Shown: in pieces, positions 114-38,517 of the stretch
Layout of the letters: every line of letters begins with the position of its first letter
Position numbering within the stretch: the first letter of the stretch is position 1
Origin: an uncultured Flavobacteriales bacterium
GTDB lineage: Bacteria > Bacteroidota > Bacteroidia > CAIKAF01
DNA: 38,521 nt
Assembly (NCBI GenBank): GCA_903825395.1
Contig: CAIKAF010000008.1
Span: 1 to 38,521 of the forward strand
Direction: 5' to 3'
Program-made: the position numbers and the translations under genes
Notes under the pieces: model-generated
What the model saw: only the letters and a program-made list of their open reading frames with translations
Databases searched by the model: none
Told to the model about the DNA's origin: nothing

Positions 114-129
114 AACCTGTCCTAAAAAT

Positions 130-265
130 GGGGTGGTTACAGTTGCCCGCAAGGGTGCCGGCGGGAGGTGGCGCGCAACGAGGAGGCGACGTGAGGAGCC
201 ACCGCAGTACGCTGCCACCCCGACGGCAACCGCGGACAACCTGAGAAAGCCCGTATCCCGCCCAC
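130..265 (-). repeat. Structured 3'-UTR repeat, copy A
   Basis: This is the first and most divergent of four related elements in the window. Read on the minus strand it begins with the family's GGGCGG..TACGGGCTTTC about 20 nt after the stop of the 285-755 gene. The stems are: 142-150 with 232-240 (GTTGTCCGC/GCGGGCAAC in gene sense, one G-U pair), 156-160 with 224-228 (TGCCG/CGGCA) and 167-172 with 214-219 (GGTGGC/GCCACC). The stem sequences differ from those of the other copies but still pair. The short open frames here (for example 49-267 minus) arise from its high GC and are not credible proteins. Confidence 0.85.
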
Positions 266-12120: not shown

Positions 12121-12576
12121 TTGCAGTTTCCAGAATTAGCCATACCACCTCAACAGCTAAATTTAAGGCTCCTCGAGGATGGGAAATATGAAGTCTGGGA
12201 CGTTTGGAGAAAGAAATGGATACTACTTAGTCCTGAGGAATGGGTAAGGCAGCAGTTCTTACATTGGTTGGTTGCTGAACATAAGTACCCCTCAGGTCGA
12301 ATTTTGATAGAAAAAGGGGTGCCCGGTCTTTCCCGTAAGCGACGCTTTGATGCCTTAGTGCTTTCAAAATCAGGATCTGTTTTTATGATTCTAGAGTTTA
12401 AGGCACCCGAAGTTCCACTAAATAACGAGGTTTTTTTGCAAATTGCGCATTACAACAGCCAGATTGCAGCTCAATACTTGGCAGTAAGCAATGGTTTGCA
12501 TACATACATTGCTCAAATTACAGCAGAAAGCAACGAAATTGTTTTTCTGACCAACATCCCTACAGAAACTCGATGA
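12121..12576 (+). CDS. HsdR N-terminal-domain (PD-(D/E)xK-fold) protein
   Basis: Small 151-residue protein matching the stand-alone type I restriction HsdR N-terminal family found widely in Bacteroidota. The nuclease-fold core is visible: Asp77 in RRFDALVL, then Glu92 and Lys94 in LEFKAPEV, followed by QIAHYNSQIAAQYLAVSNGLHTY. The usual N-terminal block DGKYEVWDVWRKKWILLSPEEWVRQQF is also present. No hsdM, hsdS or helicase domain is nearby, so this is not a restriction system; a DNA-related housekeeping role is possible but unknown. Translation must begin at the TTG at 12121, four bases after the barrel gene stop, since no ATG or GTG fits. Confidence 0.85.
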   Translation: MQFPELAIPPQQLNLRLLEDGKYEVWDVWRKKWILLSPEEWVRQQFLHWLVAEHKYPSGRILIEKGVPGLSRKRRFDALVLSKSGSVFMILEFKAPEVPLNNEVFLQIAHYNSQIAAQYLAVSNGLHTYIAQITAESNEIVFLTNIPTETR

Positions 12577-12674: not shown

Positions 12675-14594
12675 ATGACCGCTCGCTTTTACATAGTAAT
12701 GCTTTCTATTCTCTCCCTTTGGGGGACATTTTCAGGTATTGCCCAAAGTCAAGAGGTTTTTTTAGAGCTCAAAGGCATTGTAGAAGCAGAAGATGGCCCC
12801 ATTCGCCTTTACATAGAAGTAGGAGAAAAGGGACAACCCAGGCAATTGGTTAAGCTGAAAAAAGATGGTTCATTTTTTATCGAGCTTGATTTAAACATGG
12901 ACTATGAGTTTTATGTCCGCGCAGACGGTTATCAACCCCAGCTCGTTAAGTTAAATACCCGCACTTCTGATGAAACGATTGAAGCGGGACTAAAACCCTT
13001 GGATTTCAATATTTTCATGGCTAAGATTCCCGAGAAGCTAATGAAGGAAAAGGAGGAAGATGATAAAGAGAATCCCAATCCCGAAGAAATTCAACCGGTA
13101 GTTTCGAATGTGGCCTTCAACAAGGAAACAGGTCAGTTTGCTTTTAAAGAAGAGTATATGAAAAGCGTGGAAGGTCAAAAAAAGGCCGCAGAGGAGCGCA
13201 AAACACAACAAATCGCACAATATGAAAATCGCTTAGCCGAAAAAGAAGCACTAAAGGAATCAGCGGAAAAAAATAAGGAGGCTGCAGCAGAACGCCAGCG
13301 CGCCCAAGAAGAGGCACGACTCAAAGAGAAACAAATACAAGATTCCCTCCTAGCTGTTCGACGAGCAGAACAAGCCAAACGCGATGCCGAACTGGCCGAG
13401 GTAGCCCGACAACGAGAACAGGAGGCGAAAAAAGAAAAACAACGGCTTGATTCCATCCAGGCAGCCAACCTAAGGGCCATTGAGGAAAAAAGACTGAGGC
13501 AAAAAGATTCTTTAGCCGCCGTTGCAGCAGCCCAAGCAGATAAATTGGAACGAGCCAGATTGGAGGCTCAAAGAATAAAGGATTCAGTTGATAACGCCCG
13601 AATTCAAGAACAAGCTCGAATCGATGCCCTAATTGCAGCCAAGGCCGAAGAAAAACGAATTCGTGAAAACATGGAAAGAGCCCGGCAAGATTCTCTAGCT
13701 CAAGTAAGGGCCGCTGAGAATTTGGCTCAAAAGAGAAAAGAAGAACAATTGAGAATCGAAGAACAACGGCAACGTGCCATTCAAGATTCTACAGCTTTTG
13801 CTCTTCTTCAAAAAAAACAGAATCAAGAGGCCGCTTCTGCCCAACAGCAAAAATTGAAACAAGACTCGATAGCCCTAGCTAAAGAGCGACAGGCTATTGC
13901 AGAACGAGAAAAGCAGCGATTCTACGATCAGCAAGCAGCCAAAGAGCGAGACTCCATTTTGCAGGCTCAGGCTGAACAAGCAAAACGAATGGCTGCCGAA
14001 AAAAATCGACTTCAAGCATTAGCTAAGGCTCGACAAGATTCAATTGACCAAGTAAAACGCGAGGAACTACGCCGAATTGAAGCCCAACAAGCCCAAGAAG
14101 AAAAGGCCGAAAGAGCACGCCAAGATTCCCTAATACAAGAAAGAATTGAGCAAAAACGGAAAGAAGACGAACAACGACGGGTGTTGGCCTTAAAGGCTCA
14201 AGCACGCCAAGATTCCCTTGCAAAAGCTATACAACAAAAACGGGAATTGGAATTGCGCGAGGAACAACTAAGAAAAGCAGAAGCCGCCCGCCAAGCCGAA
14301 GAAACTCTAAAGGCAAAGAATGCACAGGAAGATCAAAAAATCGACCCAGCTAAAAAACGGATTATAGATAACAACATCCGGATTTTCAAAACAGCCGAAG
14401 AACGGTCAGAGGTCGTTTCTACTAGCGAACGAGCCGCCCTCATCAGCAGGCTTGTTGTGACCTTGAAAAAGTACGATATGGAAGAACTTGAGGCTTCAGA
14501 TGCCTATGGCTTTATCAATTTTGGAGATGGATCTGGAAACATCGAAGTAAGCGAAAAGGAATTCTACCGCTATCGGCGCTTATTTTTCCGCTAG
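12675..14594 (+). CDS. Exported long coiled-coil protein with 29-residue period
   Basis: 639 residues. A signal peptide (1-24) leads to a small beta-rich domain (about 27-115: VFLELKGIVEAEDGPIRLYI) that resembles the carboxypeptidase-regulatory/SprB-like folds fused to Bacteroidota envelope proteins. Residues 160-550 are a highly charged uninterrupted helix rich in E, K, R, Q and A, punctuated by a D-S motif (RQDSL-type). Eleven D-S motifs occur; the last five Asp are at 397, 426, 455, 484 and 513, exactly 29 apart. A conserved-looking C-terminal domain follows (560-639, IIDNNIRIFKTAEERSEV to EFYRYRRLFFR). I do not recognise the whole protein. It could be a long periplasmic spacer or a filament-forming scaffold. 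A palindromic repeat array begins 17 nt after its stop. Confidence 0.8.
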   Translation: MTARFYIVMLSILSLWGTFSGIAQSQEVFLELKGIVEAEDGPIRLYIEVGEKGQPRQLVKLKKDGSFFIELDLNMDYEFYVRADGYQPQLVKLNTRTSDETIEAGLKPLDFNIFMAKIPEKLMKEKEEDDKENPNPEEIQPVVSNVAFNKETGQFAFKEEYMKSVEGQKKAAEERKTQQIAQYENRLAEKEALKESAEKNKEAAAERQRAQEEARLKEKQIQDSLLAVRRAEQAKRDAELAEVARQREQEAKKEKQRLDSIQAANLRAIEEKRLRQKDSLAAVAAAQADKLERARLEAQRIKDSVDNARIQEQARIDALIAAKAEEKRIRENMERARQDSLAQVRAAENLAQKRKEEQLRIEEQRQRAIQDSTAFALLQKKQNQEAASAQQQKLKQDSIALAKERQAIAEREKQRFYDQQAAKERDSILQAQAEQAKRMAAEKNRLQALAKARQDSIDQVKREELRRIEAQQAQEEKAERARQDSLIQERIEQKRKEDEQRRVLALKAQARQDSLAKAIQQKRELELREEQLRKAEAARQAEETLKAKNAQEDQKIDPAKKRIIDNNIRIFKTAEERSEVVSTSERAALISRLVVTLKKYDMEELEASDAYGFINFGDGSGNIEVSEKEFYRYRRLFFR

Positions 14595-14611: not shown

Positions 14612-14975
14612 AATCCCCATGGCCCCGTACGGACGGACAATCGTCCGTCCAACGTTTTAAAACCCCATGCCCCGTACGGACGGACAATCGTCCGTCCATA
14701 CGATCCCCGTGGCCCCGTATGTGCGGTTATGAATCCCCATGCCCCCGTATGGACGGTTATGAATCCCCATGGCCCCGTATTAAATCCCCGTGCCCCGTAA
14801 GGACGGACAATTGTCCGTCCTACAATCCCCATGCCCCCGTAAGGACGGACAATTGTCCGTCCATACGATCCCCGTGGTCCCGTATTAAATCCCCATGCCC
14901 CCGTACGGACGGACAATTGTCCGTCCCCACGTTTTAAATCCCCATGGCCCCGTACGGACGGACAATTGTCCGTCC
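14612..14975. repeat. Ten-unit direct repeat array with six 20-bp palindromes
   Basis: The 416-nt gap between the coiled-coil and kinase genes is filled by ten copies of AATCCCC(A/G)TG(G/C)CCCCGTA. Six are followed by a 20-bp palindrome, at 14631-14650, 14678-14697, 14801-14820, 14843-14862, 14907-14926 and 14956-14975. The last four read GGACGGACAATTGTCCGTCC, perfectly symmetric; the first two have ATCG at the centre. Two units carry degenerate GTGCGGTTATG or GGACGGTTATG instead of a palindrome, and two have only TTA. Each palindrome can fold as an 8-bp stem with an AATT or AATC loop. The long minus-strand open frame across it (14515-14916) is a repeat artefact. Confidence 0.95.
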
Positions 14976-14987: not shown

Positions 14988-15010
14988 ATTACATTTAATC
15001 CCTCGACCCC

Positions 15011-17029
15011 ATGAAAAATCCCATTTTTCTAATTATCGCCATAATAGGTGTTGCCCTAAACGGATTTGGTCAATCCGTTGATAATCATACGAATGTAGAT
15101 GCGTGGGCAACCAAAATGCAAAATTGGATTGTCGAACATCCGGACGATAAATCTGTCCTGATTGATTTGGATAAATTTGGACAGGAGGCTTTACGGAAGA
15201 ACGACTCCCTTTCAATGATGCATTTCTACCGCCTAAAAAGTCATTATTTCCACTCCATTCAACGCTACCAAGATGCATTGAAATATGCACTCATGGGCGT
15301 ACAGTTGAACCATAACCTAAACAGTCAACTTCATTTCCAACTGCTGTTGGATGTGGTTTCTAATTATTGGAATTTAGGAGAACACGCTGCGGCTATTCCT
15401 TACCTTATTCAAGGTGAAAATAGAATTTCAAACCCTGAAATAAACGAGTTTTCCAAGGCGATTTTTTACAATTTCATGGGGCAATATCATTACAATGAAT
15501 ATGCCAGTGAAACAGCATTAATGTTTTTCAAGAGGGGCGATAGCCTCTTGACCCTTAATCCCGACTTTATTGAACTTCATTTTATTTGGCAACAAAACTT
15601 TAAGTCCAATATAGGTCTTTGTTTAATGGATTTAAAGCGGTTTTCGGAAGCAGAAGCAAACTTTAATCTGGCCTATTCTATTTCCAATTCCATCAACAAT
15701 AAGGCCGCAATGGGCTTTGCCTTAGTCAATAAAGTAATCGCCTCAAGGCATACCTTTCCCGACAGTACATTCGCCCCCATTTTGCAGCGAGCCTTAAATC
15801 TTGTGGAGGGAGATGCGGACAACAATTTGAAATTAACGGTTTTAAGAGAATTGGCTAAGGAATATCTAAAGTACAATCAAGCCGATAGCCTCCGAGCAAT
15901 TTTGCCTAGATTGGAAACCAGTGTCGAATTTATTCCCTCCGGTAAATCTAAAGTTCGCTTTTTATTTTATCTCGCTAAATTTAATCGGTTCCTTGGCGAA
16001 TCAAAAGCTCTAGATTATTTCGATCGGGCTTTGGCTCTAAACGATAGTCTAGCTCTGAATCCTCAAGGCCAAAATTTGCTGCAGCTGGAACGCCAACGCA
16101 ATTTAAACCTTCAGGAGCAAGAAGCAAAGAATTTGGCCGAGCTCAAGGCAGAACAACTTCGGAAAAACTTCCGCCTCACTTCGTTTTTTCTAATGGCAGC
16201 TGTTGGTTTCCTAATCCTGCTTTTGGGGGTATTAATCGCGCTATTCCAAAAAGATCGACGGTTACGAAAGACCTTAAAAACGCTCCGTTGGCAAAATTCC
16301 AATTCCGATACGCTCAACCAACAGCTGCAGCTGTCCATGCAACAAAAAAATCTCCTACTGGGAGCCGTCGCCCACGATCTGCGAAATTTATTGGTGAATG
16401 TCAATCAAGTTTCTGAAATGATGATTAAGCGGGAACTGGAAAACAATCCTACGTTTAAAGACAGAATGATTAAATTAATGGAACGCTCCTCTCGACTTGG
16501 AATGCATACCATTGAAGATTTAATCGATGGCGTTCAGCCCGAAGGCCGGCAAAGGCTAAGGCTTGAAGCCATTAATCCTGCTGATTTAATCGATTTTATC
16601 ACAGATTTGCTCTCCTTCAAAGCCGAAAAAAAGGGAATTACCTTGCAAATTAATAAGGAGCCGGGCACAGTGTATTTGTATGCCGATCGAGATAAACTGA
16701 ATAGGGCATTGATTAATTTACTCGATAATGCCATCAAATTCAGTCCAATAGATGAAGAGGTGCATGTCGGTTTTCATTCTTCCGATGAATTTTTAATTTT
16801 CGAAATCACAGACCTAGGTAAAGGTCTGCATCGCAGTCGCTTCACGCAAGGCGAACATCCGTTTACCGATATTGGCGAAGCAGGAACGCTCGGCGAACCA
16901 AGCACCGGTCTAGGCCTGTTCATCGTTAGAAAAATTGCCGAATTGCACCTAGGCTCATTCAATTTACGCTCTGAAGAAGGCAAAGGCACAACCGCAACAT
17001 TGCTAATTTCCCGAAATTTAAGGGCTTAG
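15011..17029 (+). CDS. TPR-containing sensor histidine kinase
   Basis: Membrane sensor kinase, 672 residues. Signal peptide (1-21), a periplasmic helical TPR-type region (about 55-345), a coiled coil (about 355-385), one transmembrane helix (about 389-412, SFFLMAAVGFLILLLGVLIALF), then the transmitter. H-box is AHDLRN with phospho-acceptor His455, N-box LLDNAIKF with Asn573, G1 box DLGKG (601-605) and G2 box GLGLFIV (633-639). The layout is the common Bacteroidota TPR-HK type. No response regulator is encoded in the window, so it is an orphan. It follows the palindromic array and a TACATTTA box near 14990. Structured repeat copy B starts 5 nt after its stop. Ligand unknown. Confidence 0.93.
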   Translation: MKNPIFLIIAIIGVALNGFGQSVDNHTNVDAWATKMQNWIVEHPDDKSVLIDLDKFGQEALRKNDSLSMMHFYRLKSHYFHSIQRYQDALKYALMGVQLNHNLNSQLHFQLLLDVVSNYWNLGEHAAAIPYLIQGENRISNPEINEFSKAIFYNFMGQYHYNEYASETALMFFKRGDSLLTLNPDFIELHFIWQQNFKSNIGLCLMDLKRFSEAEANFNLAYSISNSINNKAAMGFALVNKVIASRHTFPDSTFAPILQRALNLVEGDADNNLKLTVLRELAKEYLKYNQADSLRAILPRLETSVEFIPSGKSKVRFLFYLAKFNRFLGESKALDYFDRALALNDSLALNPQGQNLLQLERQRNLNLQEQEAKNLAELKAEQLRKNFRLTSFFLMAAVGFLILLLGVLIALFQKDRRLRKTLKTLRWQNSNSDTLNQQLQLSMQQKNLLLGAVAHDLRNLLVNVNQVSEMMIKRELENNPTFKDRMIKLMERSSRLGMHTIEDLIDGVQPEGRQRLRLEAINPADLIDFITDLLSFKAEKKGITLQINKEPGTVYLYADRDKLNRALINLLDNAIKFSPIDEEVHVGFHSSDEFLIFEITDLGKGLHRSRFTQGEHPFTDIGEAGTLGEPSTGLGLFIVRKIAELHLGSFNLRSEEGKGTTATLLISRNLRA

Positions 17030-17033
17030 TGTA

Positions 17034-17175
17034 GGGCGGCTTACGGGCTTTCACCGGTTGTCCGCGCTGCATGACCAATGGCCCAGCCGCTTTGCGCGGG
17101 CTCCCAAGGTCGCCTGCGCAGCTGGCGGGCCCTAGGCCATGCCGCTTGCGGGCAACCGCGTTCAATCCCTGCCGC
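17034..17175 (+). repeat. Structured 3'-UTR repeat, copy B
   Basis: Begins 5 nt after the kinase stop, in the same sense. Stems: 17055-17065 with 17148-17158 (CGGTTGTCCGC/GCGGGCAACCG, 11 bp with one G-U), 17069-17073 with 17138-17142 (GCATG/CATGC) extended towards GGCCC/GGGCC, and an inner stem GCGCGGGC/GCCTGCGC closing a loop. It has changed bases on both sides of the inner stem compared with copies C and D. It lies between convergent genes. Confidence 0.9.
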
Positions 17176-17197
17176 TCACCCCAAATCGGCCTGTTTT

Positions 17198-32488: not shown

Positions 32489-32688
32489 TCCCAAAGCAAA
32501 AAATATTTAAAGGTTAGGAGATTAAAGCGGTTTATACCTAAATTTAGTATGTTCTGCGAAGATACGGGTTCTAAAAAGAAATCGCAAGGGCAACCGCTCA
32601 TGTTTTTTTGTTTTTCTTTCAGATTTCTAGAATTGGGGGCAGAACGTTCAACGCCATGCGCTGCGGTTCTCCTTTCCCTGTGGCCCGC

Positions 32689-32830
32689 GGGCGGGATTGA
32701 AGAGGGTTGCCCGCAAGGGGGGCAGTGCCTGGCCCGCGTGGCGCGGAGGCGACTTTAGGAGCCACCGCAAGCCCGCTGGGCCAGCCACTGCCCACCGCGG
32801 ACAACCCCTGAAAGCCCGGTACCCGCCCCA
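32689..32830 (-). repeat. Structured 3'-UTR repeat, copy C
   Basis: In minus sense it starts 16 nt after the htrA stop. Stems: 32704-32714 with 32797-32807 (GGGTTGTCCGC/GCGGGCAACCC in gene sense, 11 bp, one G-U), 32721-32727 with 32786-32792 (GGCAGTG/CACTGCC), then TGGCCC/GGGCCA, and the inner GCGGTGGC/GCCTCCGC around UCCUAAAGUC. It separates htrA from rpoD. Confidence 0.9.
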
Positions 32831-36178: not shown

Positions 36179-36210
36179 GGGGCACAGGCTGTTGAGTGTA
36201 TTGGGGGTTT

Positions 36211-36353
36211 GGGCGGCTGCCGGGCTTTCAGGCTTTGTCCGCGGTGGCCGGAAGGCTGGCCCAGCGGGCTTGCGGTGGCTCCTAAAGTCGCCTCCGCGCC
36301 GCGCGGGCCAGGCTCCGGCCCCCTTGCGGGCAAAGCTCTTCAATCCCTGCCGC
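36211..36353 (+). repeat. Structured 3'-UTR repeat, copy D
   Basis: Starts about 32 nt after the mltG stop in the same sense. Stems: 36232-36242 with 36326-36336 (GCTTTGTCCGC/GCGGGCAAAGC, 11 bp, one G-U), 36246-36252 with 36314-36320 (GGCCGGA/TCCGGCC), TGGCCC/GGGCCA, and the inner GCGGTGGC/GCCTCCGC. Its core is nearly identical to copy C, but its two outer stems differ on both strands. Confidence 0.92.
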
Positions 36354-36397
36354 ATAAAAAACCGGCATCGAAGTCCAAACCGGCATAAGGCCTAAAT

Positions 36398-36994: not shown

Positions 36995-38517
<1,523 letters not shown>

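Follow-up and report, generated by a model that had tools for sequence, protein, structure and literature searches.

In the window, by which we mean the whole 38,521-nucleotide stretch of DNA analysed here, a plus-strand gene coding for a 639-aa protein without a Pfam match (12675-14594) precedes a plus-strand kinase gene (15011-17029) whose 672-aa product combines TPR and HATPase_c domains, and between the two lies an array of ten 18-bp units and six hairpins in a single orientation (14612-14975, plus strand). A further plus-strand gene (12121-12576) codes for a 151-aa protein that matches HSDR_N_2 alone, the N-terminal domain of type I restriction R subunits. The units, two of which are one base short of 18 bp, start at 14613, 14661, 14703, 14733, 14763, 14784, 14825, 14868, 14889 and 14938. 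Six of them are directly followed on their 3' side by a hairpin, to which no strand is assigned (hairpins 1 to 6: 14631-14650, 14678-14697, 14801-14820, 14843-14862, 14907-14926 and 14956-14975), with start-to-start distances of 47, 123, 42, 64 and 49. This bears out the preliminary description of the locus, which had reported ten units with six palindromes and an uneven palindrome spacing of 42-123 bp, unlike that of CRISPR. Each hairpin has the sequence GGACGGAC-AAT(T/C)-GTCCGTCC, that is, 20 bp with an 8-bp stem and a 4-nt loop, extending up to 28 bp if the feet are included. The loop reads AATT in hairpins 3 to 6, which are perfect 20-bp dyads, and AATC in hairpins 1 and 2, where it is non-dyad; what had earlier been taken for an ATCG-centred version of the palindrome is thus not a full palindrome, but the identical 8-bp stem with AATC replacing AATT in the loop. 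The four units without a full palindrome comprise three in succession (14703-14783, plus strand), with the connectors TGTGCGGTTATG, TGGACGGTTATG and TTA, and a fourth at 14868-14888 (plus strand), again with TTA; we read these short connectors as hairpin remnants or losses. The earlier suggestion that unit and palindrome are separable modules consequently holds in one direction: four of the ten units lack a palindrome, but every one of the six palindromes directly follows a unit in the same relative orientation and uses its final GTA as one of its feet. Among the feet of the array we found one GTAG (hairpin 6, minus strand), one GTGG (hairpin 5, minus strand) and one GTAG that shares one base with the stem, the other three hairpins bearing the degenerate forms CGTT, GTAT and GTAT. 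When up to 3 mismatches are tolerated, the unit pattern has 9 matches in the window against 0.22 expected from dinucleotide shuffles. The array region holds 6 hairpins with a stem of at least 8, whereas 300 shuffles yielded 0.05 on average and never more than 1; with both counts so far above the shuffles, chance can be excluded as the source of the array.

Hairpin 6, at the downstream end of the array, is followed by CTAC and a run of eight T (T8), and its counterpart in the sister species (genome G003) by CTACATTTTTTT. Together, this hairpin and the T8 resemble a plus-strand terminator, a role that is putative because terminator-like sites in the array region show no excess over shuffled sequence (9 against 8.8). 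Just 5' of the kinase gene stands the putative promoter motif TACATTTA (14990-14997, plus strand). In the window's own genome (G000) and in G003 the TACNTTTA motif precedes the kinase ATG by 21 nt, and in two further relatives, G001 and G005, by 23 nt; it resembles the Bacteroidota -7 element TAnnTTTG. Its position downstream of the array suggests that the kinase gene has its own transcription start there.

We then examined the distribution of both elements. With up to 3 mismatches allowed, the array locus was the only place in the window's own genome (2,625,067 bases) where the hairpin was recovered. A genome-wide scan for the unit returned, within the array, eight matches at 0-1 mismatch and one at 3 mismatches, and outside it just 12 matches, all at 3 mismatches, against 13 for a reversed control pattern. 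The hairpin core GACGGACNATNGTCCGTC is present in four of 395 genomes of the class, namely G000, G003, G012 and G013, which belong to a single family. When genome contigs were scanned for GTAG together with the hairpin, seven stretches were recovered, among them one from a record titled Flavobacteriaceae and one from a record titled Bacteroidales. A phage origin of the hairpin was rejected, as viral contigs contained no exact match to it. A search of Rfam with five sources likewise returned nothing in the array, its sole match in the window being the 16S rRNA (36995-38515).

In G003, whose kinase is 91% identical, the array occupies the orthologous place, there split over two contig ends, and these two loci are the only places where the 18-bp unit was found. 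The two arrays have been homogenised in a species-specific manner: seven of the ten units read ATG in the window, all six recognisable units read GTG in G003, and the short connectors differ between the two, which together support tandem amplification followed by drift. All four G003 hairpins carry a GTAG foot, counting one that overlaps the stem. In the more distant G001 and G005, with kinases 65% and 62% identical, the order of the gene pair from the coiled-coil gene to the kinase is kept, and no such hairpin or array lies between the two genes, where a different repeat of about 145 nt is found instead.

In G012 and G013, which belong to another genus, the hairpin occurs singly at dispersed places, for the most part in the gaps between unrelated genes. 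We examined 18 of these copies (11 of the 13 places in G012, six of the eight in G013 and one further G013 place): 16 lie outside ORFs longer than 300 nt and near gene ends, while the remaining two, with the same 18-bp core, lie inside RAYT genes of G012 (C7:416209-416712 and C36:44128-44619). Many of the copies in the two genomes have GTAG directly before the stem, and some of those in G012 have T-runs after the hairpin. A wider family is captured by the pattern GTAGNGACG(8-14)CGTCNCTAC, which matched in six of the 16 genomes of the order, every match being 28 bases long and several lying inside or beside RAYT genes; the reversed control gave none.

The window's genome has a related RAYT gene on contig C5 (11005-11556), of 184 aa in the frame listed. 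Its product scores 56.1 bits against NF047646 REP_Tyr_transpos (3.6e-15), which is below the cut-off of 80, and 24.5 bits against Y1_Tnp, which exceeds the cut-off of 23. Its motifs are WQ, YIKNNP and DHIH, to be compared with WQ, YIxNNP and NH[IFV]H in TnpAREP subclass 2.4, as given in the pertinent sections of Quentin et al. (2018; PMC6006769). Around and inside this gene are six sister-stem hairpins, AGACGCAC..GTGCGTCT. They differ from the array stem at two stem pairs, and one contains a mismatch in its stem; the internal copy is in frame and precedes the HUH motif. A RAYT with exactly the stem of the array was not found in G000, where the C5 RAYT has a sister stem. Beyond its own and the G003 copies, the nearest family relatives of the C5 RAYT are the RAYTs of G013 (52%) and G012 (55% and 47%), and the array stem thus belongs to the kind of REP that the C5 RAYT carries. 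The best Y1_Tnp match in G000 (L063) was set aside as an IS200-type transposase with no such hairpins nearby. As a separate observation, just after the RAYT gene on contig C206 of G003 (L065, about 1870-2015) there are several tandem copies of the half-hairpin CCCGTAGTAGAGACGCACAATAGTGCA, each preceded by CCCCGTA, which is reminiscent of how the 18-bp unit in the window ends.

In-frame REP-like palindromes are seen in the RAYT genes of G000:C5 (L137, 2003-2557, minus strand) and G003:C206 (L138, 2329-2895, plus strand), as well as in L147, L148, L152-L155, L157, L160 and L213, the last with as many as 12. Across the class, perfect palindromes occur in frame at 68 of the 111 RAYT loci analysed, where the 111 are part of a longer listing with approximate start codons and some near-duplicates (e.g. 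L219 and L220); 94 such palindromes fall in 66,042 in-frame bases against seven in 146,083 bases at distances above 400 nt. We considered and rejected this as a novelty, since REPs flanking the RAYT gene and in frame inside it, along with "double foot" REPs, are already described for subclass 2.4 in the part of PMC6006769 devoted to it, and the count accordingly serves only to support the REP reading of the array.

In an alignment of 29 copies of the hairpin, 27 of them distinct, 99.5% of the 216 stem cells pair, and 20 cells are changed on both sides. At the outermost stem position the pairs seen are G-C, A-T and C-G, at the fifth they are G-C and C-G, and five of the eight pairs never vary. 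The numbers of paired cells and of double-changed cells and the covariation score all exceed those of shuffled alignments (0 of 500 shuffles reaching them). With five of the eight pairs invariant, no such excess is seen in how many pairs vary or how many pair types occur.

Based on these observations we propose that the array is very probably a head-to-tail REP cluster of the TnpAREP/RAYT subclass 2.4 type, amplified in place and without a dedicated job, and that the 18-bp unit is most likely co-amplified flanking DNA. The hairpin is a short palindrome in the 20-40 bp range, with an 8-bp stem, a 4-nt loop and covariation; the GT[AG]G foot expected of REPs is seen in G003 and in several G012/G013 copies, but among the six window copies three have a degenerate foot; dispersed, mostly intergenic copies are seen in G012 and G013, all six of G000 being at one locus; and the same 18-bp core is carried by two RAYT genes of G012, the C5 RAYT of G000 having a sister stem only. 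The C5 RAYT, with REPs on its flanks and in frame within it, may itself belong to subclass 2.4. As for the origin of the array, a single REP with a GTAG-type foot, presumably mobilised by a RAYT, may have landed between the two genes in an ancestor of the window species and G003. Local amplification would then have copied it along with some 18-23 bp of neighbouring DNA, the later unit; hairpins would later have been lost or shortened in some copies, probably by slippage, leaving the palindrome-less units. Incidentally, hairpin 6 and the T8 behind it probably terminate transcripts of the upstream gene, while the kinase gene would be read from a promoter of its own just downstream of the array. 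REP elements are usually present in high copy number in a genome, and the confinement of the element to one locus in G000 thus speaks against this reading, as do the lack of an exact-stem RAYT in that genome, the degenerate feet and the invariant stem pairs.

The REP interpretation also agrees with two of the guesses made in the preliminary description, namely that the palindromes are a hairpin-forming element or the target of a small transposase: the palindrome looks like the REP of a RAYT (TnpAREP) of the Y1/HUH kind. That description had further named an outcome that would overturn it, the wide occurrence of palindrome and unit as known REP-like elements without a fixed gene association, which proves largely true of the palindrome but not of the unit. 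The search it recommended, for consistent pairing of the two in this genome and its relatives, found the palindrome on its own in G012 and G013 and the unit solely at the window locus and its G003 ortholog.

BIMEs of Escherichia coli are tandem REP mosaics with intervening motifs in which the orientation of the REPs alternates. The window array is alike in being a tandem mosaic but keeps a constant orientation, a comparison that draws in part on a portion of PMC3686654. For the GTAG REP clusters of Di Nocera et al. (2013; PMC3733652), large tandem clusters of single REPs with variable-length flanking DNA are reported, and REPs mostly lie near gene 3' ends; the window array shares the tandem reiteration with flanking DNA and the gene-3'-end position, but differs in that all its copies are head-to-tail. 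With subclass 2.4, which is abundant in Bacteroidetes according to the relevant part of PMC6006769, the array shares the hairpin with, in part of its copies, a 5' GT[AG]G foot, its relatives with a complementary CTAC at the other end correspond to the "double foot", and REPs around and in frame in the RAYT gene are common to the C5 and G012 RAYTs and that subclass. Unlike subclass 2.4 as characterised there, the window array sits at one locus with no adjoining RAYT and partly decayed feet, and the C5 RAYT has its internal REP before rather than after the HUH motif and DHIH where NH[IFV]H is expected.

Other readings of the array have to be weighed against the REP cluster. The preliminary description had entertained a protein-binding array controlling the kinase gene, in effect an operator with six sites for a dimeric regulator, and the perfect 20-bp dyads of four copies as well as the retention of the array directly upstream of the kinase in both G000 and G003 would fit such a role. 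However, G001 and G005 keep the gene pair together with its TACNTTTA motif in the absence of the array, the palindrome has no other site in its own genome, two copies have a non-dyad loop, and relatives of the palindrome lie at gene ends and inside RAYT genes, in another genus beside unrelated genes; given the array-less pairs and the single genomic site we rejected the operator, which we hold to be very improbable. We regard it as quite unlikely that the array is a selectively maintained, functional multi-hairpin terminator or insulator shielding the kinase promoter from transcription of the upstream gene. The CTAC and T8 after the last hairpin, CTACATTTTTTT at the same point in G003 and the T-runs after some scattered G012 copies favour it, but within the array the T-run is limited to the last hairpin, the region has about as many terminator-like sites as shuffled sequence (9 against 8.8), and the 18-bp unit and the copy number are left unexplained. 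Since it is compatible with a REP origin, this reading in part supplements the REP cluster instead of competing with it.

That unit and hairpin form one composite is likewise unlikely; here the unit would supply the GTA foot and act as a recognition or duplication module, growth and shrinkage of the array in place would be driven by TnpAREP copying, and the whole could operate as a tunable multi-hairpin terminator/insulator separating the upstream gene from the kinase promoter. A CRISPR-like array, suggested by tandem repeats with a conserved unit, has practically no likelihood: in place of unique spacers of constant length there are hairpins or short remnants at a spacing of 42-123, relatives of the hairpin occur singly, and it is the absence of spacers that refutes it. 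The REP cluster adds a REP subfamily that, among 395 genomes of the class surveyed, is limited to four from a single Bacteroidota family. It also offers two sister species between which the make-up of one such cluster can be seen to change, and it removes a false lead, in that the hairpins are probably not a switch for the kinase.

The array-less site of G001 led to the detection of a GC-rich structured repeat of about 145 nt. In both G001 and G005 (L015 and L016) one copy lies upstream of the kinase gene at the place of the array and another just downstream of the gene. Four copies are present in the window (121-259, plus strand; 17033-17178, minus strand; 32684-32829, plus strand; 36210-36356, minus strand), one of which starts 4 nt after the kinase stop. 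Rfam, searched at gathering scores with five sources, contained no match, and we found no description of the repeat in the literature, which is not proof of its being unpublished. With about 40 of the 181-216 first-look candidates scored per genome, there are at least 41-42 matches each in G000, G001, G003 and G005, with one in G002 and three in G004. A covariance model recovered the four separate window copies (a fifth row being the opposite strand of one of them), matched 52 of 52 scored candidates, drawn from 800, in its own genome and gave weak matches in three of 59 other genomes; as it was trained on same-genus copies, three of them from the window, its hits here are partly by construction. 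The window's own genome thus has at least 41-52 copies, and perhaps about 200. When 13 copies are aligned, they fold as a single long hairpin of 49 pairs, of which 26 show a compensatory change in at least one copy.
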